The notes: generated from the letters alone by a model not told the origin. DNA of 64,000 nt from Thiomicrorhabdus sediminis (GCF_005885815.1 NZ_CP040602.1:1813630-1877629); one strand, 5' to 3'; shown: positions 44,632 through 64,000, counted from the first letter of the stretch. Program-made: numbers and translations.

Positions 44632-45696
44632 ATGAAAGAGATATCAGAGACAAACGTACAGCCATTTGCCCAAATTCCGATGCAGGCCGTGGGCCCGTTT
44701 AAACTCATCGGTGATGTCGAAACCGATGATTTAATGGTGCCGATGGCAACCTATGAAACACCGCTTTGGCCCTCTGTGGCTCGCGGTGCTCGAGTGGCCG
44801 CCAGAGCCGGCGGCATTCGCGTCACCTTGATTGATGAGCGTATGACCCGCTCCATTTTGCTGCAAGCCAAACACGCCGGCATTGCTGCCCAACGCCTTGC
44901 CGAAATCAAAAGCCGTCAGGAAGATATTCAAGAGGTCGTCAGTCAAAGCAGTCGTTTCGCCAAACTTTTGGAAATGAACTCCCAAGTGGTCGGTAATCTG
45001 ATTTATCTGCGCTTTGAGTTTCATACCGGTGATGCCTCGGGCCACAATATGGCCACCAATGCAGCGGATAAAATTATTCCTTGGTTATTGGCCGAATACC
45101 CGGATTTGGATTATGTATCGATTTCGGCCAACTACTGCACCGATAAAAAAGTCTCGGCGGTTAACGGTATCTTAGGCCGAGGTAAATACGTGGTTTGTGA
45201 GACCACTATTCCTGCCAAGCTCTGTCAGCGATACTTAAAAACCACACCGCAAGCGCTGGTGGATCTGCATATCAAAAAAGACCTGATCGGCAGCATTGTT
45301 TCCGGTGGTCTGCGAACCGCCAATGCCCATGTCGCCAATATGCTGTTAGGTTTTTATCTCGCCACCGGACAAGATGCCGCCAATATCGTTGAAGGCTCTC
45401 AGGCCATCAACCATGCCGAAGTCACCCCGGAAGGCGATTTGTATTTTTCAACCACCCTCCCTAACTTGATTGTCGGCTCGGTCGGCAACGGTAAAGGCTT
45501 GGATTTCGTTTTGGAAAACCTGCGTTTATTGGGCTGTGCTGACGACTCTCTGCCTGCCGGAGGCAATGCTCGTCGCTTGGCCTGCATTGCCGGTGCGACC
45601 GCATTTTGTGGTGAACTGTCCTTACTTGCGGCGCAGACCAATCCGGGTGAGCTGATGCAAGCGCATATTAAACTGGAACGCCAGCACAAGGCCTAA
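44632..45696 (+). CDS. mvaA: hydroxymethylglutaryl-CoA reductase
   Basis: 354-residue soluble HMG-CoA reductase that reduces HMG-CoA to mevalonate. The catalytic set can be read: Glu42 in MATYETPLW, Lys172 in NYCTDKKVSAVNGILGRGK (very like the human NYCTDKK region), Asp248 in GQDAA and His345 in LMQAHIKLER. The usual DAMGMN cofactor loop is DASGHN here. There is no membrane anchor. First of six mevalonate-pathway genes on the plus strand. A TATAAT hexamer ends 7 nt before the ATG and no ribosome site is seen, so the transcript may be leaderless. Confidence 0.9.
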   Translation: MKEISETNVQPFAQIPMQAVGPFKLIGDVETDDLMVPMATYETPLWPSVARGARVAARAGGIRVTLIDERMTRSILLQAKHAGIAAQRLAEIKSRQEDIQEVVSQSSRFAKLLEMNSQVVGNLIYLRFEFHTGDASGHNMATNAADKIIPWLLAEYPDLDYVSISANYCTDKKVSAVNGILGRGKYVVCETTIPAKLCQRYLKTTPQALVDLHIKKDLIGSIVSGGLRTANAHVANMLLGFYLATGQDAANIVEGSQAINHAEVTPEGDLYFSTTLPNLIVGSVGNGKGLDFVLENLRLLGCADDSLPAGGNARRLACIAGATAFCGELSLLAAQTNPGELMQAHIKLERQHKA

Positions 45697-45721
45697 AACG
45701 GCATAGCCGCAAAGAGAACCG

Positions 45722-46756
45722 ATGAGCACAGAATTTCAGGCACAACAGGTTAATCGTCGCAAGCAAGATCATATCGATGCCGTGCTCAATGACCCGCTAG
45801 TCGAGCGAGGCAATAGCGGTTTCGAAAGCATTCGCCTGCAACATCGCGCCTTGCCCGAATTGGATTTCGCCCGCCTCGACAGCTCAGTACGTTTTTTACA
45901 TAAACAGCTCGACCTGCCTCTTCTGATCGCATCAATGACCGGAGGCAGTGGCGAAAACCTGCAGCATATCAACCGCCATTTAGCCGAAGCCGCGCAACAA
46001 GCAGGCATCGCCATGGCGGTGGGTTCACAACGAGCGATGATCCTCGATAAGGCCGCACAAGCCAGTTTCGATATCCGTCGCTACGCCCCCGACATTCCGT
46101 TAATTGCCAACTTGGGAGCGGTGCAACTGAATTACGGTTTCGGAGAAGATGAAGCGCGCCGTGTTATCGATATTCTTGAAGCCGATGCGCTTTATCTGCA
46201 CCTCAATCCGTTACAAGAATTGATTCAGCCCGAAGGCGATACCAATTTTGCCCATTTGCTGGAAAAAATCGCCCAATTGCAAAACAAAATCGATGTGCCG
46301 ATTATCCTAAAAGAAGTCGGTTGTGGTTTAAGCGATAAAGACATTGAATTGGGCTTATCCGCCGGTATCCGTTATTTTGATATAGCCGGTCAAGGCGGTA
46401 CTTCATGGAGCCGCATCGAATCGCATCGATCCGACAACAGTCTTGGCGAACTGTTCCAGGATTGGGGACTGACCACTTTGCAGAGCTTAGAGCAAGCTAG
46501 AGCCTACCAAAAACAAGGCTATTTTATTGCCAGCGGCGGCATACGAAACGGTATTGATATGATAAAAGCTGTTATAATGGGCGGCCGAATTTGTGGTATT
46601 GCGGCGCCATTTTTGGCTCCGGCACAAGACTCAACAGAAGCCGTATTAAAAACGATCGGGCAATTTAAGCAGGAATTCCAGACCGCTCAGTTTTTGCTGG
46701 GTGTAGATAAGGCGCCTAAATTGCATTTAAACAAACAGCTGGTTGTTGCCGACTGA
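45722..46756 (+). CDS. fni: type 2 isopentenyl-diphosphate delta-isomerase
   Basis: 344-residue FMN- and NADPH-dependent enzyme interconverting IPP and DMAPP. Family motifs are RKQDHIDAV at the N-terminus, LLIASMTGGSG, AVGSQRAM, LIANLGAVQL, LHLNPLQELIQPEGD, ILKEVGCGLS and the FMN phosphate site FIASGGIRNGIDMIKA. It lies 25 bp after mvaA. Type 2 isomerase is the usual partner of the bacterial mevalonate pathway. Confidence 0.95.
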   Translation: MSTEFQAQQVNRRKQDHIDAVLNDPLVERGNSGFESIRLQHRALPELDFARLDSSVRFLHKQLDLPLLIASMTGGSGENLQHINRHLAEAAQQAGIAMAVGSQRAMILDKAAQASFDIRRYAPDIPLIANLGAVQLNYGFGEDEARRVIDILEADALYLHLNPLQELIQPEGDTNFAHLLEKIAQLQNKIDVPIILKEVGCGLSDKDIELGLSAGIRYFDIAGQGGTSWSRIESHRSDNSLGELFQDWGLTTLQSLEQARAYQKQGYFIASGGIRNGIDMIKAVIMGGRICGIAAPFLAPAQDSTEAVLKTIGQFKQEFQTAQFLLGVDKAPKLHLNKQLVVAD

Positions 46757-46823
46757 CTCACAGAAGAGACTGCGCAACAGGCTTAAGCCAAACAGCGATA
46801 ATAAAAAGATATACACTCCGTTA

Positions 46824-48002
46824 ATGATGAAAGTTGGTATTGATCTTATTCACTTTGCAACCGCCGATTACTACCTCGGTCTAGATACTTTTGCCGAGGA
46901 AAAACAGACTGAGCTCGACAAGTATATCGTTGGTATCGGCCAGGAAAAAATGTCGATCGCCCCGCCGGATGAAGACATTGTCAGCCTGGCCGCCAAAGCC
47001 GCAGCGCCGATCCTAGAAAAAATCGATGCCAGCCAGATCAGCGCGGTGTTGTTTGCTACCGAAACATCGGTTGACCAATCCAAATCGGCCGGTGTGTTTT
47101 TGCATGGTCTGCTGGAACTGCCGAGCCGTTGCCGAGTGGTCGAATTCAAACACGCCTGTTATGCCGGCGCGGCCGCCTTGCAGATGGCAACCACCATGGT
47201 CAAGGCCAACCATAAAGAAAAAATTCTTGTTATCGCAGCAGACATCGCCAAATACGATGTTGATACCTCAGGCGAAGCGACCCAAGGCTGTGGCGCCGTT
47301 GCCATGCTGGTAAGTGCTAATCCACGTATTATCGAAATCGAATCCGGCTCCGGTTACTACACCGATGATGTTATGGATTTCTGGCGTCCTAACAACAGAA
47401 CCACCGCCTTGGTGGACGGTAAATATTCCACCAAAGTGTACTTGAATAGCCTGAAACACGCTTGGCAGCATTTTGTTGAAGAGACCGGACGCAAGTTTGA
47501 AGACATCGATTACTTCTGCTACCACATTCCATTTACCAAAATGGCGGAAAAAGCGCATAAGACTCTGGTTAAAAAAGTCGCGGCCAGCGTGACTCAGGAA
47601 CAATTTGATAAGCAAACATTGCCGAGCCAAGTCTATAACCGCATTGTCGGTAACAGTTACAGCGCTTCACTATTTGTCGGCTTTATTTCATTGCTGGATA
47701 ATGTCAAAGACAACTTGGCCGGTAAAAGGGTCAGTTTTTTCAGCTACGGTTCCGGCTGTGTCGCAGAGTTTTTCAGTGGTATTATCCAGCCCGGCTATGA
47801 AAAAGTCTTAATGACCGGTGATCACCTACGCCAGATTGAACAACGTCAACCGTTAAGTTACCAGCAGTATCTGGACTATTATCACAATCAAGAAACTCTG
47901 CCGGAAAACATTATTTTTCCGCAAACCAATAAAGGCCCATACCGTTTAGCGGGTATTGATGACCATAAACGCTATTACGAAAAAACCACTGATTCACAAT
48001 AG
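46824..48002 (+). CDS. mvaS: hydroxymethylglutaryl-CoA synthase
   Basis: 392-residue thiolase-fold enzyme that condenses acetyl-CoA with acetoacetyl-CoA. The catalytic triad is visible: Glu80 in FATETSVDQSKSAG, nucleophile Cys112 in EFKHACYAG, and His234 in CYHIPFTKM. NSYSASLFVGF and FSYGSGCVAEFFSG line the substrate pocket. The frame is open back into fni, but tandem ATGs at 46824 and 46827 give the normal N-terminus MKVGIDLIHF. No acetoacetyl-CoA thiolase is in the window. Confidence 0.95.
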   Translation: MMKVGIDLIHFATADYYLGLDTFAEEKQTELDKYIVGIGQEKMSIAPPDEDIVSLAAKAAAPILEKIDASQISAVLFATETSVDQSKSAGVFLHGLLELPSRCRVVEFKHACYAGAAALQMATTMVKANHKEKILVIAADIAKYDVDTSGEATQGCGAVAMLVSANPRIIEIESGSGYYTDDVMDFWRPNNRTTALVDGKYSTKVYLNSLKHAWQHFVEETGRKFEDIDYFCYHIPFTKMAEKAHKTLVKKVAASVTQEQFDKQTLPSQVYNRIVGNSYSASLFVGFISLLDNVKDNLAGKRVSFFSYGSGCVAEFFSGIIQPGYEKVLMTGDHLRQIEQRQPLSYQQYLDYYHNQETLPENIIFPQTNKGPYRLAGIDDHKRYYEKTTDSQ

Positions 48003-48060
48003 GCGCTTGACTGTTTCGTATATGTCGAGCACGCGCTAATTGTTCAACCGGAAGGCGACC

Positions 48061-49095
48061 ATGCAAACACTTTGTTCAGCACCTGCCAAACTGATTATTT
48101 CCGGTGAGCACTCGGTGGTTTATGGCGCTCCTGCCCTAAGCATGGCTATAGAACGCTATGCGCAATGCCGCTGCGAGCTCGATGAACGGCAAACCAGTGG
48201 TCTGAGCATAATTCTCGATGACCTTAACCAAAGCCAGCGCTTTGCGCTCGCCGAATGGCATCAAATCGCCGTTGAACTGGAAACCCGTTTTGTCCTCTTT
48301 CAACAAAATGCGATTGCCATCCAAAACGTTCTCAATACCCCGTTCGAACTCATTATTTGCGCTTTCCACCTGTTTGAACAGGAGTTCGGTTTGAACCGTG
48401 GCCACTGGCAGGTCCAATTATCCTCAGAAATTCCTATCGGACGAGGCTTGGGCAGCTCGGCGGCGATTATCGTCAGCGTGTTAAAGTCGCTTGTGGTCCA
48501 ACACCAACTGCACTGTAGCGATATGCAATTACTCGCTCTTGCCAAACAGGTCGAATCACGCCAGCATGGCCGATCTAGCGGTCTTGACCCGGCCACTTCA
48601 ATACTTGGCGGCCTGATACGTTTTGAGCAACAGTGCCCGACTAAATTCAGCGAAACAAATCCCCCTTCAATCAATGCTTGGCTGATCGATAGCGGCAAAC
48701 CCCAAAGCACGACCGGGCAAGCGGTGTCTCAGGTGCGCAATCAATTTGCCGACAATCAACCGCTTTGGCAGCAGTTCAGCCACACCACCCAATCCCTGAG
48801 TCAGGCTTGGCAAAATAGAGATATCAAGGCCGTTAAAGCTGCCATTGAAAAGAACCAACAACTATTAAACAGCATCGGCGTGGTGCCCAGAACGATTGAG
48901 AATTTTATCGGTTTATTGAGCAAACACTATCAAGCAAGTGCAAAAATATGTGGTTCCGGTGCCATTAAAGGCGATAATGCAGGAATCATTCTCTGTGTAG
49001 CGGACGAGCCACCTGTGGATTTATGCCGTCAATACGGCTTTGATATCAACCCAATCGCAATGGATTTGAGGGGCGCCCTGTGTCAGCAAAACTAA
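48061..49095 (+). CDS. mvk: mevalonate kinase (GHMP family)
   Basis: 344-residue GHMP kinase expected to phosphorylate mevalonate. It has GEHSVVYGAPALSMAI (15-30), the phosphate loop PIGRGLGSSAA (125-135), HGRSSGLDPATSILGG with the catalytic Asp, the substrate strand DSGKPQSTTG and the C-terminal ICGSGAIKGDNAGI loop. GGAAGG 5 nt before the ATG at 48061 decides the start over a TTG at 48040. It overlaps the next kinase gene by 16 nt. The assignment over the neighbouring kinase rests on the S-T-T-G segment and is moderately secure. Confidence 0.8.
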   Translation: MQTLCSAPAKLIISGEHSVVYGAPALSMAIERYAQCRCELDERQTSGLSIILDDLNQSQRFALAEWHQIAVELETRFVLFQQNAIAIQNVLNTPFELIICAFHLFEQEFGLNRGHWQVQLSSEIPIGRGLGSSAAIIVSVLKSLVVQHQLHCSDMQLLALAKQVESRQHGRSSGLDPATSILGGLIRFEQQCPTKFSETNPPSINAWLIDSGKPQSTTGQAVSQVRNQFADNQPLWQQFSHTTQSLSQAWQNRDIKAVKAAIEKNQQLLNSIGVVPRTIENFIGLLSKHYQASAKICGSGAIKGDNAGIILCVADEPPVDLCRQYGFDINPIAMDLRGALCQQN

Positions 49096-50054
49096 AAAAA
49101 TGGCAAAGCCAAGCGCCGGCAAACACCATGATTCTTGGTGAGCATAGCGTGGTCTATGGCCATCCGGCAATAGCCTGCGCAGTGGATCAATATGTCACGA
49201 TTGAATGGCAGCAACGCTCTGATAAAGGTCTGCATATTGTTTCCGCGTTGGGAGAACACCATACCCAAATCAACCAGATCAGCAAACATCCGAAATTAAA
49301 CTTTGTCATTGCCGTACTTCAAGCGTTTCAAAGTCGTCTCAATTTTGGTTTGGATATCACCATTCACAGTGAATTCTCATCAACCATTGGATTGGGTAGT
49401 TCGGCGGCGGTATTAGCGGCGATGATTTCCGGCTTGAACCACATTTGCCAAGCACAGCTTACCCTTATCGAACAATTCAGTCTCGGCCATAAAATCATCA
49501 TTGATATTCAAGGGCGCGGTTCCGGTACCGACTTGGCCGCCAGTCTGGCTGGTGGAATGATTTTTTTCCAACCGGTTAATGAAAACCAAGCCAAGCCGAT
49601 TATCAAAAAACTGCCGATCAACCTACCGTTGGTATTGATCTATAGTGGCTATAAGACGCCTACCGCCGAGGTCTTGAAACAGGTTGCCATTGACTGGCAG
49701 GACAAACCGAATAAACTGAAAATGCTGTATCGCTCTATGGCCAAAATCACTCGTGGTGCGCTTTATGCGCTGGAACACCATCAATTTGAGAACTTTTACC
49801 AAGCCTGCAAAGACTATCAAAAACAGATGGAAAACCTTGGCGTCAGCGACAGTGTTTTGGATGAGATCATTATGGCGCTAAATGGTTGTGCCGATATTCA
49901 TTGTGCGAAAATATCCGGTTCGGGTCTTGGCGATTGTGTATTAGGCATAGGCGAACTTAACCTATGCTCGAATCAAGCGCAGAAAATCCTCAGCCATTAC
50001 CAAAGCATCCAAATTCAAATTAGCCAACAAGGCGCCTATAGCGAAGCGCTATAA
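49080..50054 (+). CDS. second mevalonate-pathway GHMP kinase, probable phosphomevalonate kinase
   Basis: 324-residue GHMP kinase paralogous to the preceding gene. It shares GEHSVVYGHPAIACAV (20-35), the loop TIGLGSSAAVLAA (102-114), GRGSGTDLAASLAGG and KISGSGLGDCVLG. Its substrate strand reads YSGYKTPTAEVL instead of DSGKPQSTTG. As the pathway needs a phosphomevalonate kinase and no other candidate is present, that role is inferred. It starts with GTG inside the previous gene, behind a GAGGGG ribosome site. Classic MvaK2 enzymes lack the GEHSVVYG start, so this is an unusual version. Confidence 0.7.
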   Translation: MSAKLKKWQSQAPANTMILGEHSVVYGHPAIACAVDQYVTIEWQQRSDKGLHIVSALGEHHTQINQISKHPKLNFVIAVLQAFQSRLNFGLDITIHSEFSSTIGLGSSAAVLAAMISGLNHICQAQLTLIEQFSLGHKIIIDIQGRGSGTDLAASLAGGMIFFQPVNENQAKPIIKKLPINLPLVLIYSGYKTPTAEVLKQVAIDWQDKPNKLKMLYRSMAKITRGALYALEHHQFENFYQACKDYQKQMENLGVSDSVLDEIIMALNGCADIHCAKISGSGLGDCVLGIGELNLCSNQAQKILSHYQSIQIQISQQGAYSEAL

Positions 50055-50099
50055 TTTAACTTTTTTCATTACTCTGCCGTTTAACTGGAACAAAGCTTT

Positions 50100-51131
50100 A
50101 TGCCAACCTCAACAACACTTTCCCGCCAACAACTTTTTGTTAATCAGGTTTTAACGCAATCTGCACAAACAGAACCCTTTGAGGCAAAAAAAACTCAAGG
50201 TACGGGTAAGGCTCCGGTCAATATCGCTTTGAGTAAATACTGGGGAAAACGTGATATCGAGTTGAACCTGCCGCTAAACGGCAGTGTTTCCATTAGTCTG
50301 CCGGGGTTGGGAACAGAGACCGAGATTAGCCTGATTGAAGCCGCAGAGGATAAGGTGTTGTTAAACAACGAGCCACTGCCAGCGGAGCATGCTTTTGCCA
50401 AACGGGTGAGCAAGTTTCTTGACCTGTTCCGCGGTGGCGACAATCAACACTTCGCCATCAACACCTATAACAGCGTACCTACCGCCGCCGGATTGGCATC
50501 ATCCGCTTCCGGTTATGCGGCCTTGGTACTGGCATTAAATGACCTGTTTGACTGGCAACTCAATGGTCAACAATTATCTCTATTGGCACGCTTAGGCAGT
50601 GGCAGCGCGAGCCGCTCGCTATTTAACGGTTTTGCTTTATGGCATAAAGGCGAGAACGAAAACGGCCTGGACAGTTTTGCCGAAGCCATCGACACTAAAT
50701 GGCCGGAATTTTGCATCGGCCTAGTTGAGGTCGACATCAAAGAAAAACCGCTAAGCTCGACCCAAGGCATGCAGAATACGGTCAATACTTGCGATCTTTA
50801 TCAGGCTTGGCCGGAACAGGCCAACCGAGATATGCAGAGCATTATTGAAGCAATTCAAACAAAAGACTTTGCCGCACTCGGAAAAACCGCTGAACACAAC
50901 GCCCTTTCCATGCATGCCACCATGATTGCCACCTGGCCGCCGATTGTCTACTGGCAGGCCGAAAGTGTCACCGCTATGCATAAGGTCTGGCAACTTAGAG
51001 AACAAGGCATTGAAATCTTTTTCACGATGGATGCCGGCCCTAATTTGAAACTGCTGTTTCTGGAAAAACAAAAGCCTGCAATTAAGCAGGCTTTCGGTGA
51101 TATTCGAATTATCGAACCTTTTAAAGACTGA
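50100..51131 (+). CDS. mvaD: diphosphomevalonate decarboxylase
   Basis: 343-residue GHMP-fold decarboxylase making IPP from mevalonate diphosphate and ATP. APVNIALSKYWGKRD is the diagnostic substrate motif. NGSVSISLPGLGT, VPTAAGLASSASGYAALVLAL (ATP loop) and GSGSASRSLFNGFALW (catalytic Asp-equivalent region and helix) follow, with FTMDAGPNLKLLF near the C-terminus. Last gene of the mevalonate operon. A small inverted repeat at 51071-51093 lies in its final codons. Confidence 0.95.
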   Translation: MPTSTTLSRQQLFVNQVLTQSAQTEPFEAKKTQGTGKAPVNIALSKYWGKRDIELNLPLNGSVSISLPGLGTETEISLIEAAEDKVLLNNEPLPAEHAFAKRVSKFLDLFRGGDNQHFAINTYNSVPTAAGLASSASGYAALVLALNDLFDWQLNGQQLSLLARLGSGSASRSLFNGFALWHKGENENGLDSFAEAIDTKWPEFCIGLVEVDIKEKPLSSTQGMQNTVNTCDLYQAWPEQANRDMQSIIEAIQTKDFAALGKTAEHNALSMHATMIATWPPIVYWQAESVTAMHKVWQLREQGIEIFFTMDAGPNLKLLFLEKQKPAIKQAFGDIRIIEPFKD

Positions 51132-54317: not shown

Positions 54318-55310
54318 ATGAACTCAGCACTCAAACAAAGCGCGCAAAAAGAGCAGCCAGCCAAAACCATGCAAGCGGTTAATAAGATGTTAGCCCGAGT
54401 AGAGATTAGCAGCGAACAAATTCCTCTATTGGCCGAAACCGCGTTTGCCTTTAAAGCTCCTCAACATTTTATTGAGCAAATTAAAAAACAACCGACCGCT
54501 GATAACCCGCTACTGAAGCAGATTTTACCGGTTGCCGCTGAATTAGACAGCGTTCCCGGGTATAGCGAAGACCCGGTTGCCGATTTAACCTTTAACCCCC
54601 AACCGAGTCTGATTCATAAGTACCACGGTCGCGCTTTGATGATCGCCAGCCCTAAATGCGATATCCACTGCCGCTACTGTTTTCGCCGTCATTTTCCTTA
54701 TGAAGAGCAGGTCAATCAACGTCATTGGCAGAGTGCGCTGGATGCGGTCAAAGCCGATAGCAGCATTCATGAATTGATACTTAGCGGCGGTGACCCGATG
54801 AGTCTGTCGGAAAATGCGTTGATGAAACTGATCAGATTAATTGATGATATTGAACAGATTAAAACCCTGAGGATTCATTCACGCACTCCGGTTGCCGCTC
54901 CCGATCAGGCACCACGGCAGCAGTTCTTGTCGTGGCTGAAAAACACCCGTTTGAAGGTGGTCCTGGTGGTGCACTGCAATCATGCCGATGAGCTCTCAAC
55001 ACAGACCGAAGCCTTATTCAACCTATACCGTCAGGCCGGTGTGACATTACTCAATCAAAGCGTATTGCTTAAAGGGGTAAATGATAATGTCGAAACCTTA
55101 CAACAGCTAAGCCATAAGCTTTTTGAGCAAGGCGTTCTGCCCTACTATTTGAATCAACTGGATAAGGTCGCCGGATCGGCGCATTTTGAAGTCAACGATG
55201 AACAAGCCATCGCCCTGCATAAGGAGCTGCGCGGTTTACTGCCGGGCTATCTGTTACCTAAACTGGTAAAAGACATTGTCGGACGCAGTTCAAAGACACC
55301 GCTCGCCTAA
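54318..55310 (+). CDS. epmB: EF-P lysine 2,3-aminomutase
   Basis: 330-residue radical SAM enzyme converting lysine to (R)-beta-lysine for EpmA. The iron-sulfur motif C114-x3-C118-x2-C121 (CDIHCRYC) is followed by FRRHFPYEE, then ELILSGGDPMSLSE and LRIHSRTPVAAP. The PLP-lysine region near the C-terminus (HFEVNDEQAIAL) is recognisable. Shorter than catabolic lysine aminomutases and the same size as E. coli EpmB (YjeK). Ends 6 bp from the convergent GT39 gene. Confidence 0.95.
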   Translation: MNSALKQSAQKEQPAKTMQAVNKMLARVEISSEQIPLLAETAFAFKAPQHFIEQIKKQPTADNPLLKQILPVAAELDSVPGYSEDPVADLTFNPQPSLIHKYHGRALMIASPKCDIHCRYCFRRHFPYEEQVNQRHWQSALDAVKADSSIHELILSGGDPMSLSENALMKLIRLIDDIEQIKTLRIHSRTPVAAPDQAPRQQFLSWLKNTRLKVVLVVHCNHADELSTQTEALFNLYRQAGVTLLNQSVLLKGVNDNVETLQQLSHKLFEQGVLPYYLNQLDKVAGSAHFEVNDEQAIALHKELRGLLPGYLLPKLVKDIVGRSSKTPLA

Positions 55311-55315
55311 TTCGG

Positions 55316-56860
55316 TTAGGGCAAGTCATAGCGCTGTTTAAATGGGCAAGGCCCGGCAAATGGACTTAAGTTCTGCAACCAGTCCGGTGCCGTATAAAAC
55401 TTCTCATTAACCGGCTTTATGACCTGCTCACGGTATAGAGAATAATTAAACTCGTGCCCTTCTAGCCAGTAATATTGCGTCATTGCATTGATCTGCAAGC
55501 TCTGCACGTCCAACTTGGTAAAATAGGGCTCGACCTTTGCCAAATCCTTCTGATGGGTAATCAAAAGCTTAAGGGTACTGCCATCCAAGCCTTTATAGTC
55601 AATCAATTTGTCATCTTCACGGCCGTATTTGGACTGGCTGGCAAAGACATGAATCTGATCATTCTGACAATGATAGGCCAACGCCGACTGGCTGCTGTAA
55701 TCCAGCGTGAAAAATGACGTTTGTTGATCAATCGGTAAAGCCGAACACACCTTGGCCGGTGTTTTATAAAGAGCGACCTGATGTCTTTGCGATTCACCGA
55801 TCAATTGTTCGGCCCAATTCAGTGCTAATAAAATCGCCACACCGGCAATTAATGAAAGCCAAGCGTTAAAACTCAATAAACGACTTAATTGTCGGTCATT
55901 TAAGCGCGCATAGAAAACATATAGCAAGCTCACCGCAATCAAAGGCCAATGCAAGCCGACACTGTTTTTAAAACTGACTACCAGCAACACCAGCAATAAC
56001 GGCAAGGTCGCAAACAAGATCAGCGCGGGCAGTTTATTGGCATAATTGATATTAATCAAAGGTGCTAACTTCAGCGCTTTCAAGCCATACCAAACGCCTA
56101 AGGGCGATAACAGCACCAGCAGCATTAACAGATAGCTGAGGACATTCATCATGTCGAAATGGCTTTCCGCGGTACGCGAAAAGAAGTTGAACAGAATATT
56201 GTTCCAACAATGTGCGGCGTTGAATAACCAGTTTTCAAGCAGTGCGATAACAACCAGTGCGATCATTACGGCGAGTTGCTTCCAATTGAATTGACGCCAC
56301 TGCCAAAGGCTGAAAAGCAAAAGACCAAACAGCATAAAGGCGGCAAAGTATTTGGCCAAAAACGCCAAACCTAAAAACAATCCCGCCAAAATCGCATCGA
56401 GCCACTTCCGGTAGAGGTAGGCACGGCTAAAGAAAAACACTCCCAACACTGCCACAACCACCAGCACCGTATCATTCGCGGTGACCACAAACATCAATGA
56501 AATGGGCGAAACAAAAAACACCAACGCAGTATAAAACGCGACCGGCTTTTTATCCGGCATCTGCATGATGACAAACTGATAGATCAACACGCTGATCAGC
56601 ACGGCGCCAAAAAACGCAAACGCACGGTACCAATAAAGATTGTCGGCAACTTGCGACATGGCGGCCAAAAGCCAGCCGACTGCCGGCGGATGGTCATAAT
56701 ATCCCCAAGACAGATTTTGACCCCAGCCGATAAAATAGGCTTCATCACCGGTTAAGGGCAACAAAGCGATCAGTAGGATTTTGATAACAATAAAAGCGGC
56801 CAGCAAGATTTGCTGTGCGCGGGACAATTGCGAAATAAAAGAGGTGAATGCCGTGAACAT
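55316..56860 (-). CDS. GT39/ArnT-like membrane glycosyltransferase (first copy)
   Basis: 514-residue GT-C fold protein with an N-terminal helix, then the first periplasmic loop with the catalytic acidic pair in LTGDEAYFIGWG and the following WGYYDHPPAVGWL. About eleven further hydrophobic helices and a C-terminal periplasmic domain of about 140 residues follow. Such enzymes transfer a sugar from a polyprenyl-phosphate donor to an envelope acceptor, as ArnT does. It closes the leftward arm after the UbiA-like and PAP2 genes, so polyprenyl-phospho-arabinose is the likely donor (inference). Acceptor unknown. A paralogue lies at 61071-62585. Confidence 0.8.
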   Translation of the reverse strand: MFTAFTSFISQLSRAQQILLAAFIVIKILLIALLPLTGDEAYFIGWGQNLSWGYYDHPPAVGWLLAAMSQVADNLYWYRAFAFFGAVLISVLIYQFVIMQMPDKKPVAFYTALVFFVSPISLMFVVTANDTVLVVVAVLGVFFFSRAYLYRKWLDAILAGLFLGLAFLAKYFAAFMLFGLLLFSLWQWRQFNWKQLAVMIALVVIALLENWLFNAAHCWNNILFNFFSRTAESHFDMMNVLSYLLMLLVLLSPLGVWYGLKALKLAPLININYANKLPALILFATLPLLLVLLVVSFKNSVGLHWPLIAVSLLYVFYARLNDRQLSRLLSFNAWLSLIAGVAILLALNWAEQLIGESQRHQVALYKTPAKVCSALPIDQQTSFFTLDYSSQSALAYHCQNDQIHVFASQSKYGREDDKLIDYKGLDGSTLKLLITHQKDLAKVEPYFTKLDVQSLQINAMTQYYWLEGHEFNYSLYREQVIKPVNEKFYTAPDWLQNLSPFAGPCPFKQRYDLP

Positions 56861-56895
56861 AGATTATTGATTACCTTAAAAGTCCATCGTGCCGA

Positions 56896-57336
56896 CTAAA
56901 CTGAAAGCGCGACTAAAATATAGGCAACCAAGACACCGACCAGAATACCGGCGCCGATTTCAATTCGACTATGACCGATACGCTCTCTTAATTGAACTGA
57001 GTTCTGAGCCTTATTCAGCTGATTGATGAGCGTGGCGTGTTTGCCGACTTGTCGCCTTAAGCTATTGGCATCGAGCATGACGATAAATGCCAAGGTCAAG
57101 GCAACGCCAAATGCGGCACTATCAATACCGTGTAATAACGCGATCAACATCGCCATACTGCTGACAATGGCGCTGTGGTTACTTGGCAAACCACCATAAC
57201 CGATCAAGCCGAACGCCAACTGCTTGGCACGAATCGAATTGATAATAAACTTGGAGACACCGGCAACCAGCCAGGCGATAAACGGAGTGATCAAATAAAG
57301 ATAATCGGCCAGATAAGGCATTAAAGGAGCGCTCAT
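56896..57336 (-). CDS. divergent PAP2-family membrane phosphatase
   Basis: 146-residue membrane protein with four to five helices. GYGGLPSNHSAIVSSMAML carries the PSxHS phosphatase motif of the divergent PAP2 (DUF212) family, followed by LDANSLRRQVGKHA. A and stop codons overlap with the upstream UbiA-like gene (TAATG) behind a GGAGGAG site, so translation is coupled and the longer start at 57372 is unlikely. In mycobacteria a PAP2 protein (Rv3807c) is encoded next to DPPR synthase and is the proposed 5-phosphate phosphatase. The same role is inferred here. Confidence 0.78.
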   Translation of the reverse strand: MSAPLMPYLADYLYLITPFIAWLVAGVSKFIINSIRAKQLAFGLIGYGGLPSNHSAIVSSMAMLIALLHGIDSAAFGVALTLAFIVMLDANSLRRQVGKHATLINQLNKAQNSVQLRERIGHSRIEIGAGILVGVLVAYILVALSV

Positions 57337-58241
57337 TAAGCTCCTCCTTGCGGCCATAACGCCCATAGACAAGTACCAATCCAGGCAATGACGGTCAGCA
57401 ACAACTGTTTATCGGCAATCAACGCTTCGGTCGGCGATTCACCTTTACCTAAAGCCTCACTGATATACCAGTAACGGAACAAGCCAAATAAAACGAAAGG
57501 AATCGTCATGACCATTTCCGGGCGCGCGTTCATTACAAACAGACTATAGAACAATAAGGCACCGGTGGCTGACATCTCAGCGTAGCGGTCAATCAAGGCA
57601 ACCGAATATTTCGCCAAAACTTCACGCCCCTGCTGGGTAGTCTGCATAAGTTCCTGACGGCGTTTGATCGCGGCAAGATAAAGCGCCAGACACAAGGTGG
57701 TGACAAACATCCAGCTCGATACCGGTACCGAAATCGCCATGGCTCCGGCATAGACGCGCAATACAAACCCGCTGGCGATGGTAAAGATATCCAAAACAGG
57801 CTGATGCTTGAGATAAAAGCTATAGGCGACATTCAACAATAAATAGGCGATGATAACCGCCATGACCATCGGCTGGACCACAAACCCTATTAGCAAAACA
57901 GCATACAACACCGCCAGTAACATTTTGGCCTGCGCCGGCAAAACCTGTCCGGAAGCCAGCGGGCGTTTTTTTGATTTGACCGGGTGCAGGCGATCGCTCT
58001 CTATATCCTGCAAATCATTGACGATATAAGTGGCCGAAGCGGCGATTGAGAACAGGACAAAGGCAATCAGCGCTTCGGAGATGGCGACAACATCTAGAAA
58101 CAGTCCGGTAAACATCAATGGCGCAAACACAAAGGTATTTTTCAGCCATTGATGTGGACGCATCAATTTTATTAAACCAAGTAAAGCGGAAGACTTTTGC
58201 GGATTAGCTGCGTCAAGCTTATCGGAAGTGTTAGAATTCAT
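57336..58241 (-). CDS. decaprenyl-phosphate phosphoribosyltransferase-like UbiA protein
   Basis: 301-residue UbiA-superfamily prenyltransferase. The first Asp-rich motif is N75-D-L-Q-D-x3-D83, followed by SKKRPLASG. The N-terminal LIKLMRPHQWLKNTFVFAP is characteristic of DPPR synthases (Rv3806c type), which join PRPP to polyprenyl phosphate. The second motif region is SFYLKHQPVLDIFTIASGF, and about nine hydrophobic helices are visible. Quinone-type UbiA proteins have a different start. First gene of the leftward arm, 148 bp from the divergent gtrA gene. Confidence 0.85.
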   Translation of the reverse strand: MNSNTSDKLDAANPQKSSALLGLIKLMRPHQWLKNTFVFAPLMFTGLFLDVVAISEALIAFVLFSIAASATYIVNDLQDIESDRLHPVKSKKRPLASGQVLPAQAKMLLAVLYAVLLIGFVVQPMVMAVIIAYLLLNVAYSFYLKHQPVLDIFTIASGFVLRVYAGAMAISVPVSSWMFVTTLCLALYLAAIKRRQELMQTTQQGREVLAKYSVALIDRYAEMSATGALLFYSLFVMNARPEMVMTIPFVLFGLFRYWYISEALGKGESPTEALIADKQLLLTVIAWIGTCLWALWPQGGA

Positions 58242-58389
58242 GTAATTATTTCTGCCTACGTTAATTGGCTAGCTTATTAAGCTAAACAGAGTCAAATCCA
58301 CTCATAAAATTAGCAGGGCATAGAACTGCGTAAATAACCTATAATTCTTTACAATATCAGCCCGGAAAATAGACCCAAAAGCCTACTGA

Positions 58390-58779
58390 ATGAAGATTGC
58401 ATTAATGTACACGATTTTCGCCGTTCTCGCCACTGCGGCTAATATCGTCAGTCAAGATATCACCCACCGAATCTATCAAGGCCAATTTGAGCTATGGCTT
58501 TCTATTTTTGTCGGCACCGCCGTCGGCTTGGTAGTGAAATATTTTCTCGACAAACGTTATATCTTCCAATACCAGACCACCTCGATTGGCCACGGCAGCA
58601 AAACTTTCTATCTTTATACCTTGATGGGGGTAGCCACCACCGTTATCTTCTGGGGATTCGAAGCCGCTTTCGACGCCATTTATCAGACCCAGCAGATGCG
58701 TTATATCGGCGGTATCATCGGCCTGGCAATCGGCTATTTTGTTAAATACCAGCTCGATAAACGTTTTGTGTTTCGTTAA
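58390..58779 (+). CDS. GtrA-family small membrane protein
   Basis: 129-residue protein with four hydrophobic helices and the paired GtrA repeats AVGLVVKYFLDKRYIFQYQ and, near the C-terminus, AIGYFVKYQLDKRFVF. GtrA proteins are proposed to help flip or present polyprenyl-linked sugars. Mycobacterial Rv3789, encoded next to dprE1, is in the same family. Here too it directly precedes the dprE1-like gene (30 bp), which supports a link to lipid-linked arabinose. Confidence 0.88.
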   Translation: MKIALMYTIFAVLATAANIVSQDITHRIYQGQFELWLSIFVGTAVGLVVKYFLDKRYIFQYQTTSIGHGSKTFYLYTLMGVATTVIFWGFEAAFDAIYQTQQMRYIGGIIGLAIGYFVKYQLDKRFVFR

Positions 58780-58809
58780 TGATTAATATTTCACAACAGG
58801 CTTTTTAGC

Positions 58810-60144
58810 ATGAATCATGTCAGCAAAATCTCCGGTTGGGGACGTTACCCGCAAATCGATAGCCAGGCACTACCGGCAAATAGCATGCAACAGGTTCAGC
58901 TGCATATTGCGCAAAGCGGCTCGCTGCTTGCCCGAGGATTGGGGCGCAGTTATGGCGACAGCAGCCTGAGTGAACGCCACATCCCCATGCAACGTTTGGA
59001 TTATTTTATCGATTTTGACGATAACACAGGCGACCTGCTCTGTTCCGCAGGCGTCAGTTTGGCCGAAATCCTCGAGCATTTTGTTCCGCTCGGCTGGTTC
59101 TTACCTGTCACCCCCGGCACTCAGTTTGTCACCATCGGTGGCGCCATCGCCAGTGATGTGCATGGCAAGAACCATCACTTGCACGGCAGTTTCTGCGAAC
59201 ATATCAATTTTCTGAAAATCTGTCTCGCCAATGGTGAAATGGTGCGCTGCTCGGCAAACGAAAACAGTGCGCTGTTTCATGCCACCTGTGGCGGCATGGG
59301 CTTGACCGGCATTATTGTCGAAGCCAGCCTGCGTTTGATTCCTATTAACAACCGTTTTATTGCCGAGACCACCTTAAAAACCGCAAATCTAAGCGAAACC
59401 TTGCAAAGCTTTGAGCAGACGCAGGATTTCACCTATTCGGTAGCCTGGATCGATTGCCTTGCCAAAGGCGCCAACCTTGGGCGCTCACTGATAATGTTGG
59501 GCGAGCATGCCGGAGACGAAGCCGATCAACTATATGCCCGAGACCTATCCAAGCAAATCAACAAAGGCCAGCTGAGCATGCCTTTTAATTTGCCGCAATT
59601 CACCCTTAACCGCTATAGCATCAAGGCATTCAACAGCCTTTATTACCATCGCGTCACGAGCCCGAAAAGCGAACGTATTGTCGACTATCAGCCGTATTTT
59701 TATCCATTGGATAAGATCGCCCACTGGAATCGTATGTACGGTAAGTCGGGCTTTGTACAATACCAGTTCGTCATTCCTAAAGAGGCGGGACAAGAAGGCT
59801 TACATAAGATTTTGCACGAAATAGCGCAAAGCCAACGCGGCTCTTTTCTAGCGGTTCTCAAGCTATTCGGTAAAGGCAATGACAATCTGCTCAGCTTTCC
59901 GCAACAGGGTTATACCTTGGCCTTGGACTTTAAACTGGACAATAATCTTTTTGCTTTTCTGCAACGACTCGATGCCATTGTGCTCGACTACGGCGGGCGC
60001 ATTTATCTGACTAAAGATGCGCGTATGTCGGAACAGACATTCAAACAGAGTTACCCACGCTGGCAAGAGTTTCAAGAGGTTCGCGAGCACTATGGCGCCC
60101 TGGAGAAATTCAACTCTTTGCAGTCACAACGCCTCGGCCTTTAG
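58810..60144 (+). CDS. DprE1-like FAD-dependent decaprenylphosphoryl-ribose oxidase
   Basis: 444-residue VAO-type flavoprotein expected to oxidise the 2'-OH of polyprenyl-phospho-ribose. FAD motifs are LARGLGRSYGDSSL (40-53) and TPGTQFVTIGGAIASDVHGK (101-120), with GKNHHLHGSF matching the mycobacterial GKNHH region. FGKGNDNLLSFPQQGYTLALDF aligns with the DprE1 active-site strand, and the position of mycobacterial Cys387 is Ala371. The C-terminal KDARMSEQTFKQSYPR also matches. Next to dprE2-like and gtrA genes. Confidence 0.88.
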   Translation: MNHVSKISGWGRYPQIDSQALPANSMQQVQLHIAQSGSLLARGLGRSYGDSSLSERHIPMQRLDYFIDFDDNTGDLLCSAGVSLAEILEHFVPLGWFLPVTPGTQFVTIGGAIASDVHGKNHHLHGSFCEHINFLKICLANGEMVRCSANENSALFHATCGGMGLTGIIVEASLRLIPINNRFIAETTLKTANLSETLQSFEQTQDFTYSVAWIDCLAKGANLGRSLIMLGEHAGDEADQLYARDLSKQINKGQLSMPFNLPQFTLNRYSIKAFNSLYYHRVTSPKSERIVDYQPYFYPLDKIAHWNRMYGKSGFVQYQFVIPKEAGQEGLHKILHEIAQSQRGSFLAVLKLFGKGNDNLLSFPQQGYTLALDFKLDNNLFAFLQRLDAIVLDYGGRIYLTKDARMSEQTFKQSYPRWQEFQEVREHYGALEKFNSLQSQRLGL

Positions 60145-60250
60145 CGCTTGAAAACAGACGAATTCATCGGCTTTTTGCTATAGTAGGCAACTACTCGGTT
60201 GAGATGCTTCAACCCATTAACTTTATGTTTATACTGATGCGAGACGCTTT

Positions 60251-61012
60251 ATGACCAACGCTGCTGCCAATCAAACTAAAAATATCGTCATTATCGGCGC
60301 CACCTCGGCGATTGCTCAGGCCACTATCCGCGAATATGCCAAACAAAACCACCGTCTGTTTCTAGTGGCTCGCAATAAAGAACAGCTCAACTTGATTAGC
60401 GATGATGCCAAATTACGCGGCGCACATGAGGTGGATAAGTTCTATTTGGATACCACCGATTATGAGGCCCATAGCGAGTTAATGAACTGTATCAATGAAA
60501 CACTGCCTAGCATAGATATCGTTTTGATCGCTCATGGCACTCTGCCGGATCAAACAGCGTGTCAAAACAATGTCGCACTGATGATGCAAGAAGTCGAAAT
60601 CAATGCGCTCAGCACCATTGCCTTATTAAGCCATCTTGCCAATCAGATGGAAACTCAGCAAACCGGCGATATCGCAGTGATCACCAGTGTTGCCGGTGAT
60701 AGAGGTCGTCAGTCGAATTATATCTACGGTGCGGCAAAATCGATGGTGAGCACCTTTTTACAAGGGCTGCGTAACAGACTTTATAGCAAGAACATTAATG
60801 TGCTGGATATCAAACCGGGCTTTGTCGACACACCGATGACGGCGAGTTTTAAAAAAGGCTTGCTTTGGGCACAGCCTGAACAGGTTGCCAAATCGATTGT
60901 CAAAGCCATCGATAAACGTAAATCGACTCTGTACACACCATGGTTCTGGCGTTTTATTATGCTGATTATCCGCAATATCCCAGAAACCATTTTCAAACGC
61001 CTGAAGCTCTAA
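60251..61012 (+). CDS. DprE2-like SDR, keto-arabinose reductase
   Basis: 253-residue short-chain dehydrogenase with cofactor loop IIGATSAIAQAT, AHGTLPDQ in place of the classical NNAG, Ser146 in ITSVAGDRG, and Tyr159-x3-Lys163. The altered cofactor loop and VAGDRGRQSNYIYGAAK stretch are those of DprE2 proteins, which reduce the 2'-keto intermediate to polyprenyl-phospho-arabinose. The position 106 bp after the dprE1-like gene supports this. The C-terminus (FWRFIMLIIRNIPETIF) is hydrophobic and may touch the membrane. Confidence 0.86.
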   Translation: MTNAAANQTKNIVIIGATSAIAQATIREYAKQNHRLFLVARNKEQLNLISDDAKLRGAHEVDKFYLDTTDYEAHSELMNCINETLPSIDIVLIAHGTLPDQTACQNNVALMMQEVEINALSTIALLSHLANQMETQQTGDIAVITSVAGDRGRQSNYIYGAAKSMVSTFLQGLRNRLYSKNINVLDIKPGFVDTPMTASFKKGLLWAQPEQVAKSIVKAIDKRKSTLYTPWFWRFIMLIIRNIPETIFKRLKL

Positions 61013-61070
61013 TCAGCAAACTCAGATTAAGACGTTGTTAACAGACCAATCACAAAACCAGAATGATTCA

Positions 61071-62585
61071 ATGAAAAACGCAGCCATGACATCTCTAATT
61101 AACACACCACAAAAAGCCAGTGTCGCACTGGTCGCCTTTATGACTTTGATTCACCTGATTATGGCGTTTCATGTCGAGCTGGGCGGAGATGAAGCGCATT
61201 ATGCGTTATATGGATTAATGCCGGATTGGAGTTATTTTGACCATCCCCCATTAATTGGTTGGCTGCAGATGTTACCGATGGCACTGCTACCTTTTGACTG
61301 GGCGGCACGTTTGGTGCCGATTACCCTCTATGCCCTGCTCAATTACCTGCTGTATCGAGTCACCATCGAATTGTTTGGTGATCAAAGCGCCGCTGATAAC
61401 AACGCCGGATGGCTCGGCTTTTTCAGTCTGGTCTTGCTTAACAGTAGTCTGATTCTTTCCCTGATGGGGATGGCGATGTTGCCTGATAACCCTTTGATGG
61501 TGATTGTTTTGGCGCTGCTACTGGTGATCAAAAGAATGATGGATAGCGGCAAGCGAATCCGCTTATCTTTATGGCTATGGCTCGGCGTACTGGTTGGATT
61601 GGCCGCTTTAGCCAAATATACCGCCATCACCATCGTGGTTTCTCTAGTGGCGATAATGCTGATGGAAAAACGTTTTTACTGGCTTAAACAGCCCGGTCTT
61701 TACCTAGCCGTTGCGATCAGCGCCCTGATGCTTCTGCCGGTGCTCTATTGGAATGCCAGTCACGACTGGGCATCGTTTATTTACCAGATTAACCACGGCA
61801 CCCATAGCGACAGCTGGCAAATTGAACGCTTATTGCAAACCCAAGCCATTCAGTTGATTGTTTACAGCCCGCTCATTTTCGTTGCCGGCTGGTTAATGAT
61901 GTTGAAAGCTAGCAACTATATCAACCCAGCCAATCACTCACGCCGTTTATTGTTGGCGTTTGCGCTACCTGTCACCTTACTGTTTGGTTGGGGATCCGGT
62001 TTTGAACCGAGCTTGCCGCACTGGACATCCTTGGCTTGGCTATTGTTGATTCCGATCGTTGCTGACAGCCTATGGCAACAACGTCAAAAGCGCTGGGTCA
62101 AGAACGTAATAGCGGCTCACCTATTGATTATGGTGCCTCTGGTCTTACTGTTGCATAGTTTTATCTATCAGCCGTGGATTGCATTTGCCGATTACAAACA
62201 CCCATTACAAGGTGATTATGGCTGGCCTGAAGCGGCGGCCAAAGCCGAACAGTTACAACAGCAAATCCAGCAACAAAGTGATGCAAAAAAACCGGCACTG
62301 TTCGTTTCCAACTGGAGTTATGCCAGCCACCTGGCTTGGTATGCCAGACCACAACCGGTATTTATCACCAGCTCCATGCAGACCCAGTTTGAGTTTTGGT
62401 ATGGCCGTCCACAAGCGGGAATGGATGGATTGTTGGTAGCACCTCATTACGAGCCGAACCCACCGCTGACCAATGAAGCCAACCACTTCGAGTCATGTCA
62501 GCGAATTGACCAGTTAGATATGCACGGTGATGACAATATTATTGTCAGCTACTATTTCTATCACTGCCGCAATTACTTGCCTTAG
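61071..62585 (+). CDS. GT39/ArnT-like membrane glycosyltransferase (second copy)
   Basis: 504-residue GT-C protein paralogous to 55316-56860. The first loop carries LGGDEAHYALYG and WSYFDHPPLIGWL, and MGMAMLPDNPLMV follows. About ten helices are visible, then a periplasmic C-terminal domain with WYARPQPVFITSS. It follows the dprE2-like gene and should use the same lipid-linked sugar. The frame opens at a TTG (61035). ATGs at 61071 and 61086 are both plausible and no strong ribosome site decides. Confidence 0.8.
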   Translation: MKNAAMTSLINTPQKASVALVAFMTLIHLIMAFHVELGGDEAHYALYGLMPDWSYFDHPPLIGWLQMLPMALLPFDWAARLVPITLYALLNYLLYRVTIELFGDQSAADNNAGWLGFFSLVLLNSSLILSLMGMAMLPDNPLMVIVLALLLVIKRMMDSGKRIRLSLWLWLGVLVGLAALAKYTAITIVVSLVAIMLMEKRFYWLKQPGLYLAVAISALMLLPVLYWNASHDWASFIYQINHGTHSDSWQIERLLQTQAIQLIVYSPLIFVAGWLMMLKASNYINPANHSRRLLLAFALPVTLLFGWGSGFEPSLPHWTSLAWLLLIPIVADSLWQQRQKRWVKNVIAAHLLIMVPLVLLLHSFIYQPWIAFADYKHPLQGDYGWPEAAAKAEQLQQQIQQQSDAKKPALFVSNWSYASHLAWYARPQPVFITSSMQTQFEFWYGRPQAGMDGLLVAPHYEPNPPLTNEANHFESCQRIDQLDMHGDDNIIVSYYFYHCRNYLP

Positions 62586-62592
62586 GCCGCCC

Positions 62593-63969
62593 ATGCAAGC
62601 TATCGATTCCAGCGCGAATAAAAGCATTTTCATCTTGCCGTTTCTGTGGTTCTTCAAAGCCCTGATTTTGCCGTGGACACACGCCAAAGAGATCATCGCC
62701 CAGCCCAATAAAGCCTTTATCGAGGTCGATTTTCTTAAGGGGCTAAGTGTACTGATGGTAATCACCTTTCATGTCTTTTTTGCCGTCTTTGTGGTGTTTA
62801 AAAAACAGCCTGAAGCGCTGCAACTTTTCATTGATTCGATTCCGCCCGCAATGAGCTTTGTCTTGGGCTTTGACAAGGCGGTGGATATCTTTTTTATGCT
62901 CAGCAGTTTTTTATTGACCTACTCGCTGCTCAATATCCATGAGAAAAAACAGGATATCTCTGTCTCGCGTTTTTATCTGCACCGTTTCTTTCGAATTTAT
63001 CCACTGTTTGTTGTTGCCTTGCTGCTCTACGGCTTGGCCGATATCGACAAACTTTTGCGTGATGGCTGGTACAGTTTGCTCTTTATTGAAAATATTTTCA
63101 GTAAAGGCATTATCCCCGTACAGTGGAGTTTATCGATTGAAATGCAGTTTTATCTGATTATGCCTTGGCTGATTTTATTGCTGCTAAGAAGCTGTCACGG
63201 TATTTTCTGGCTCGTGGTGCTGATAGTGCTTTCCGCCGGGGCCCGTTATTGGGTGGCCTTATCGGATGCGTTGATTTATCAGACGCCTTGGTATCAGATG
63301 TTCCAGTCAGAGCATATCAGCCTCTATATGGACAGCATGTATTATGTCATTGAAACACGCCTTACTCCGCTACTACTGGGAATGCTCTGGGCATGGCTGA
63401 TCTTTTTTAAGCCTAATGCCCGCTTACAAAGCTCCGCTGTGGTCAAAGCCTTGGTGTGGATTAGCATGTTAAGTCTGATTTATATCAGCATGCGCTTTCC
63501 AGTCTATGCGGAAAGCTCTCATTACTATCAGGTATTTGACAGTCAAATCAATCTTGCCGCGATCAGCCTGCATCGCATTGTTTTCAGTGTCGCCATATTA
63601 GTACTGATCTTATTCGGTTTTTATCAACTAAAACCCACAGCAAGTTCGGTCCGGCAAAACCTGAAACAGCGCCTATTAGAAAATAAAACCTGGCGCCTGC
63701 TATCCGAAGTCGCCTACCCGATGTACTTTTTCCACTTTCCGTTTGTCGCCATTGCCTGGGTGCTCGTTTTGGGTACCACTGAGATCCATTCAATTGAACA
63801 GATTCGACTATGGATGCTGGCGCCGGTGATTGCCTTGGCGATAGCCATGACGCTGTATTTTTCTTTGTGGATGAACTTTCTGATCGAAGCGCGCTTTATC
63901 AAAATCGGAAAACAGATTGAAACCAAATGGTTTGCCGGGCATAATGCCCCTGCAAACCGAAAAAACTAA
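62593..63969 (+). CDS. acyltransferase-3 family membrane protein
   Basis: 458-residue OafA-type integral membrane acyltransferase. The family start FIEVDFLKGLSVLMVITFHVFF contains the conserved His. RFYLHRFFRIYPLFVVALLL is the R-x-x-R-I-x-P motif and VQWSLSIEMQFYLIMPWL the W-S-L-x-x-E motif. About ten helices follow. These enzymes O-acylate envelope sugars. The ATG at 62593 lies 7 bp after the glycosyltransferase stop; the longer frame from 62527 would overlap that gene by 59 bp. Last gene in the window; the final 31 bp hold nothing. Confidence 0.85.
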   Translation: MQAIDSSANKSIFILPFLWFFKALILPWTHAKEIIAQPNKAFIEVDFLKGLSVLMVITFHVFFAVFVVFKKQPEALQLFIDSIPPAMSFVLGFDKAVDIFFMLSSFLLTYSLLNIHEKKQDISVSRFYLHRFFRIYPLFVVALLLYGLADIDKLLRDGWYSLLFIENIFSKGIIPVQWSLSIEMQFYLIMPWLILLLLRSCHGIFWLVVLIVLSAGARYWVALSDALIYQTPWYQMFQSEHISLYMDSMYYVIETRLTPLLLGMLWAWLIFFKPNARLQSSAVVKALVWISMLSLIYISMRFPVYAESSHYYQVFDSQINLAAISLHRIVFSVAILVLILFGFYQLKPTASSVRQNLKQRLLENKTWRLLSEVAYPMYFFHFPFVAIAWVLVLGTTEIHSIEQIRLWMLAPVIALAIAMTLYFSLWMNFLIEARFIKIGKQIETKWFAGHNAPANRKN

Positions 63970-64000
63970 TCAAAAACATCTAAATACCCTGAACTGACTA

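Follow-up and report, generated by a model that had tools for sequence, protein, structure and literature searches.

D-arabinofuranose (D-Araf) is already known in Gram-negative bacteria, both from the pili of Pseudomonas paraeruginosa and from the work of Kelly in 2024 (PMC11127046). P. paraeruginosa (PA7/Pa5196) arabinosylates its pilins and carries the D-Araf cluster PSPA7_6245-6251 as well as the pilin transferase TfpW (PMC12369383). One account calls PSPA7_6246 the synthase in one passage and the phosphatase in a second (PMC11127046). The pentofuranose systems of Citrobacter have three components, a polyprenyl-phosphate-ribose synthase, a MATE flippase and a GT136 transferase, and their Araf versions include DprE1 and DprE2 homologues (PMC11127046). 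Here we describe a variant of such systems, a locus at positions 55316-63969 of a 64,000-nucleotide stretch of the Thiomicrorhabdus sediminis genome (GCF_005885815.1, NZ_CP040602.1:1813630-1877629; hereafter the window). With it, a pathway that serves as a drug target in tuberculosis would be extended to marine Thiomicrorhabdus, a free-living bacterium that oxidises sulfur.

Compared with the mycobacterial decaprenyl-phospho-arabinose pathway (Rv3806c, Rv3807c, DprE1, DprE2, Rv3789 and Emb/Aft), the locus has the same predicted order of reactions and homologous UbiA, DprE1 and DprE2 proteins, but its candidate phosphatase is a DUF212 protein rather than Rv3807c, Cys387 of DprE1 is replaced by alanine, and it has no Emb-type or TfpW-type transferase. 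With P. paraeruginosa it shares a Gram-negative UbiA of the decaprenylphosphoryl-5-phosphoribose (DPPR) synthase type accompanied by arabinose genes, and a predicted polyprenyl-linked D-Araf donor. Unlike P. paraeruginosa, it contains no pilin gene, no TfpW-like enzyme was found in a search that had no positive control, its candidate arabinose transferase is dissimilar to TfpW-like proteins, and a putative mannose module is attached. As in Citrobacter, a polyprenyl-phosphate-pentofuranose donor, a flippase and a periplasmic GT-C enzyme would act together, whereas the flippase would be of the GtrA rather than the MATE type, and DUF212 takes the place of a synthase-fused HAD domain.

We propose that the locus probably makes polyprenyl-phosphate-D-arabinofuranose, which would be moved to the periplasm and from which a GT-C enzyme would then load an envelope glycan, all of these functions being predicted from sequence. 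After phosphoribosyl transfer by UbiA, the DUF212 protein would strip the 5'-phosphate; C2 would then be oxidised by DprE1 and reduced by DprE2 (going by homology and kept residues) to give the D-Araf donor, which GtrA would flip (going by family and neighbourhood) and a transferase that we call GTa would use (going by co-occurrence). The pathway assignment is strong, based on kept catalytic residues, a separate quinone UbiA and synteny in the genus. The initial annotation, which had read the locus as a complete-looking route of this kind in a gammaproteobacterium, is upheld in this respect by the homologues found, their residues and their order across the genus.

Conserved enzymes for the predicted donor

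The eight locus genes are open frames at 55316-63969, and nine frames (54318-63969) were compared with Pfam and NCBIfam models. The UbiA-family protein (57336-58241, minus strand; Pfam UbiA, E=4e-20) is strongly predicted, from homology and kept residues, to be a polyprenyl-phosphate 5-phosphoribosyltransferase of the DPPR-synthase type. It matches the structure of mycobacterial decaprenyl-phosphate phosphoribosyltransferase (8j8j) at E=3e-39 and passes one of three models, scoring 209.3 bits on NF008978 (decaprenyl-phosphate phosphoribosyltransferase; cut-off 207) and falling under the cut-offs of the sister models NF008977 (219 against 234) and NF008976 (158 against 474). The NDxxDxxxD motif is present, and N75, D76, D79 and D83 are invariant across 91 aligned rows including 8j8j, as are H86, K89, K145, R162, K193, R194 and Y212. 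The host's own 4-hydroxybenzoate (4HB) enzyme has the motif and is without H86, K89, K145, R162, K193 and R194; a quick tree sets it apart from the DPPR-synthase-type UbiA proteins, at the end of a very long branch, in line with the initial assignment of the locus protein to that type rather than to quinone enzymes. Because the host genome, one contig of 2.37 Mb, holds three UbiA-family genes, one of them this separate quinone UbiA, quinone synthesis is independent of the locus UbiA. The second of the host's own UbiA-family proteins outside the locus (L136) falls on a long branch among the HAD-fused type in the same tree, a placement that the tool flagged as unreliable.

The FAD oxidase (58810-60144, plus strand) has FAD_binding_4 and ALO domains and matches PDB entry 4aut at E=9e-83, the next PDB family following at 3e-8. 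Equivalents of DprE1 residues H132, K134, Q334, Q336, W230, K367, K418, Y60 and R58 are present, so that nearly all tested site residues are kept, and the changes relative to the mycobacterial enzyme are Y314 to Phe, N385 to Thr and C387 to Ala. The kinship to DprE1 that had been claimed for this protein thus holds. At position 387, cysteine occurs solely in the mycobacterial row (1 of 111), and each of the 110 non-mycobacterial rows has Ala, Thr or Ser; Cys387 is the covalent benzothiazinone site of mycobacterial DprE1. The short-chain dehydrogenase assigned to the DprE2 step (60251-61012, plus strand; Pfam short-chain dehydrogenase) lies directly downstream of DprE1 in every genus locus mapped. 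Upstream of DprE1 is a small membrane protein of the GtrA family (58390-58779, plus strand; NF037976, 184 bits against a cut-off of 50), a family that adjoins DprE1 in many other bacteria, and we propose it as the flippase of the pentofuranose donor on the basis of family and neighbourhood. The locus arrangement is syntenic in about 12 further Thiomicrorhabdus genomes, which places the gene grouping far beyond chance.

A DUF212 protein as the likely 5'-phosphatase

The initial annotation named a PAP2 phosphatase in the locus. The protein in question (56896-57372, minus strand; PF02681, E=3e-33) belongs instead to DUF212 (divergent PAP2), a membrane protein family other than the mycobacterial phosphatase family, and it resembles PAP2 weakly (Pfam PAP2, E=0.42, 10.8 bits against 27.2). 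Pfam PAP2 matches six of six DUF212 members in this weak manner, the best, a homologue, at E=0.0033. It carries the invariant motifs PSNHS and GHxxxE. We consider the window protein the likely 5'-phosphatase of polyprenyl-phosphate-ribose-5-phosphate, judging by gene association, by mutual exclusion with HAD enzymes and by a weak match in structure.

First, of the 114 relatives, 20 carry DUF212, each a Thiomicrorhabdus with the gene beside UbiA, and this set coincides exactly with the genomes in which UbiA is at least 70% identical. It also stands beside UbiA and DprE1 in records from Glaciecola, two Pseudomonas, Thiothrix, Verticiella and Kangiella; going by gene order in P. indica, PA7 may use DUF212 too. 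Second, among 91 loci with UbiA and DprE1, scored for a phosphatase no more than 3 kb away or encoded in frame with UbiA, 20 have DUF212, 28 a separate HAD, 28 a UbiA-fused HAD (one with an additional, second HAD call) and 15 neither; the HAD domain was confirmed by Pfam in five sampled loci. DUF212 never occurs together with HAD (zero overlap between 20 and 56 loci; hypergeometric P=5e-11, with loci treated as independent though they are related). In the UbiA tree, three large clades largely follow the phosphatase types, and DUF212 is restricted to one of them (27 rows, 20 with DUF212 and 7 with neither type; SH-aLRT 98). These data suggest three lineages of polyprenyl-phosphoribose synthases, mostly paired with three different 5'-phosphatases. 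Third, in a second structure comparison of the AlphaFold model (pLDDT 75, a moderate value), LpxE, LPP1, PgpB and PhoC-type acid phosphatases were among the best rows (Z 5.6-7.6), a PAP2-like match that is suggestive only. A PDB sequence search with DUF212 gave no usable match, and searches of a limited collection of papers for DUF212 or 'divergent PAP2' returned nothing relevant on function.

Several observations weigh against this assignment. The exclusion between DUF212 and HAD follows UbiA clades and may therefore reflect few independent events. The seven DUF212-free rows of the clade have no DUF212 nearby or in their genome sequence as examined, so that another enzyme must act there and DUF212 is not obligatory. 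In Rugamonas, DUF212 lies away from UbiA, beside efflux-pump genes (L143, G127:C12), and a UbiA-HAD fusion is encoded at the pathway locus (L058); DUF212 is also found in organisms such as Bacillus subtilis. Finally, Foldseek with the same model found no PAP2 match, just unrelated rows of low probability. Even so, the proposed phosphatase role is new and is the most useful new hypothesis of our analysis: it gives a widespread, little-studied family a concrete candidate reaction.

Three genus genomes (G019, G026 and G031; L040, L041 and L042) are without DUF212 and have diverged UbiA, GtrA, DprE1 and DprE2 with a separate HAD, clustered elsewhere in the genome.

Two transferases and a putative mannose module

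The initial annotation listed two GT39-type transferases in the locus. Both are PMT_2 (GT-C type) glycosyltransferases, GTa (55316-56860, minus strand; PF13231, E=7e-15) and GTb (61035-62585, plus strand; PF13231, E=9e-19), but GTa alone tracks the arabinose genes, and GTb probably uses a mannose donor. The roles that we propose for them are, like that of DUF212, new.

Among 32 genus genomes, GTa and DprE1 are both present in 23 and both missing in 7; one genome, 79% complete, has GTa only, and one has DprE1 only. Outside the genus, a GTa homologue stands clearly above the GTb-like background in 4 of 13 genomes with strong DprE1 and in none of 69 others. A GTa homologue adjoins DprE1 in L045. 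On this co-occurrence, GTa is the probable transferase of polyprenyl-phosphate-pentofuranose (D-Araf). Two points tell against it: the Fisher tests (2e-5 in the genus, 4e-4 outside) treat genomes as independent and ignore phylogeny, and G031 has DprE1 without GTa. Neither GTa nor GTb had a usable match in PDB sequence searches, and a structural model of GTa was discarded as too poor (pLDDT 55). In G026, GTa is the sole occupant of an otherwise empty site between epmB and DTW (L140), the pathway cluster with its separate HAD lying elsewhere (L041).

GTa is homologous to GTb (27% over 305 columns, E=1e-12), and the two flank the pathway genes on either side, as would be expected if both used the arabinose donor to build an oligo-arabinan with no mannose module. 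We regard this as the best surviving alternative and still as unlikely. Many genomes of the family carry GTb but no DprE1, and GTb was not found in G019 and G026, both of which have DprE1 and GTa. Moreover, the locus continues past 63969, its end as first annotated: a gene for a GT2-GtrA fusion begins at window base 64000 (L003:10000-11106), and its product matches the Dol-P-Man synthase 5mlz over nearly its full length (E=3e-71). Like that Pyrococcus furiosus enzyme it joins a GT2 domain to a GtrA-type membrane domain; unlike it, the fusion is bacterial, and its synthase activity is putative. A manC-type gene, missing from the window, lies between DprE2 and GTb in L030, L031, L035 and L054, and by position in L033; the L030 copy scores 519 bits for mannose-1-phosphate guanylyltransferase/isomerase. 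The fusion and manC indicate a second donor, which, from the 5mlz match, manC and the distribution of GTb, would be a mannose lipid.

We therefore favour two roles over a shared arabinose donor, with GTb probably a polyprenyl-phosphate-mannose transferase belonging to a mannose module rather than to the arabinose route. This partly separate downstream module, comprising the fusion, GTb, an acyltransferase and, in sibling loci, manC, would make and use polyprenyl-phosphate-mannose, and the product may bear both mannose and arabinose. More tentatively, and with the odds against the scheme as a whole, the single locus could supply two polyprenyl-phosphate donors for an envelope glycan of arabinose and mannose that recalls the arabinomannans of mycobacteria, DUF212 acting as the phosphatase. 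The accessory membrane protein of the acyltransferase 3 family (62527-63969, plus strand; PF01757, E=1e-20), whose true start is probably near 62593, was not detected in L029, L031, L033 and L035.

The acceptor and the pilus neighbourhood

Another possible acceptor of the arabinose is a pilin of the MSHA or type IVa kind, by analogy with P. paraeruginosa; pilin decoration had been raised in the initial annotation. DTW, GNAT and rmuC genes follow the GT2-GtrA fusion, and MSHA-type pilus biogenesis genes come next, a few kb downstream of the locus, with MshL above its NCBI cut-off. Related DUF212-type gene sets of Kangiella (L093) and P. indica (L057), moreover, lie in or beside a pil cluster with pilB, pilC and TfpW-like transferases, and in these two organisms pilin modification is likely. 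In Thiomicrorhabdus, however, genomes without the locus keep the order epmB-DTW-GNAT-rmuC-msh (L138, L139 and L142) or epmB-rmuC-msh, without DTW and GNAT (L141). On these grounds we rejected the argument from the nearby MSHA genes to a pilin acceptor: because the msh genes are constant context, their position is uninformative on the acceptor. No pilA or TfpW-like gene lies in or beside the locus, and a TfpW-like query found no match in the host genome at E<=1, in a search that had no positive control, although two TfpW-like proteins match one another at 38%. GTa has no BLASTP similarity to a TfpW-like protein. With no positive evidence for it, a pilin acceptor is not supported in Thiomicrorhabdus, and we rate it as unlikely, slightly less probable than an oligo-arabinan; an envelope glycan would be the acceptor.

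The identity of the transferred sugar

The profile searches that the initial annotation had suggested as a check gave a divided answer. UbiA passes a DPPR-synthase model, as described above, but the other two enzymes fall short of their NCBI equivalog models, which counts against full equivalence: DprE1 scores 416 bits on NF053785 (cut-off 500; next family 70 bits) and DprE2 186 bits on NF053786 (cut-off 250). We use the labels 'DprE1-like' and 'DprE2-like' for this reason. DprE2 also scores 328 bits on NF005489, the PRK07102 model, above the cut-off of 267. Such divergence might mean that D-ribofuranose or another epimer is transferred, and in other systems, which share the starting point, Ribf or Xylf is the sugar transferred (PMC11127046). 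The retention of nearly all DprE1 site residues and the adjacency of DprE2 to DprE1 throughout the genus argue otherwise, as does the finding that DprE1/E2 homologues mark Araf-containing glycans (PMC11127046), and we hold a sugar other than D-Araf to be quite improbable. UbiA might, as its superfamily would allow, be a prenyltransferase for quinones or other aromatics in a coincidental neighbourhood; this can be set aside given its DPPR-synthase-type residues, its tree position, the separate 4HB enzyme and the conserved synteny.

Other features of the window

The left border of the locus is epmB (54318-55310). The two divergent gene sets are separated, by gene coordinates, by a 148-bp intergenic region (58242-58389), in which promoter-like matches showed no excess over shuffles. 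The true start of the DUF212 gene is probably the ATG at 57333. One further genome of the survey, G006, has two copies of the locus, L054 (G006:C198) and G006:C87; UbiA and DprE1 of one copy are split and GTa of the other has internal stops, which may reflect decay, mixed strains or assembly error.

Elsewhere in the window (44632-51131) is a mevalonate-pathway run in this gammaproteobacterium, with HMG-CoA reductase, type 2 IPP isomerase, HMG-CoA synthase and diphosphomevalonate decarboxylase. No clear phosphomevalonate kinase was identified in this run, in which two proteins both score above the mevalonate kinase cut-off.

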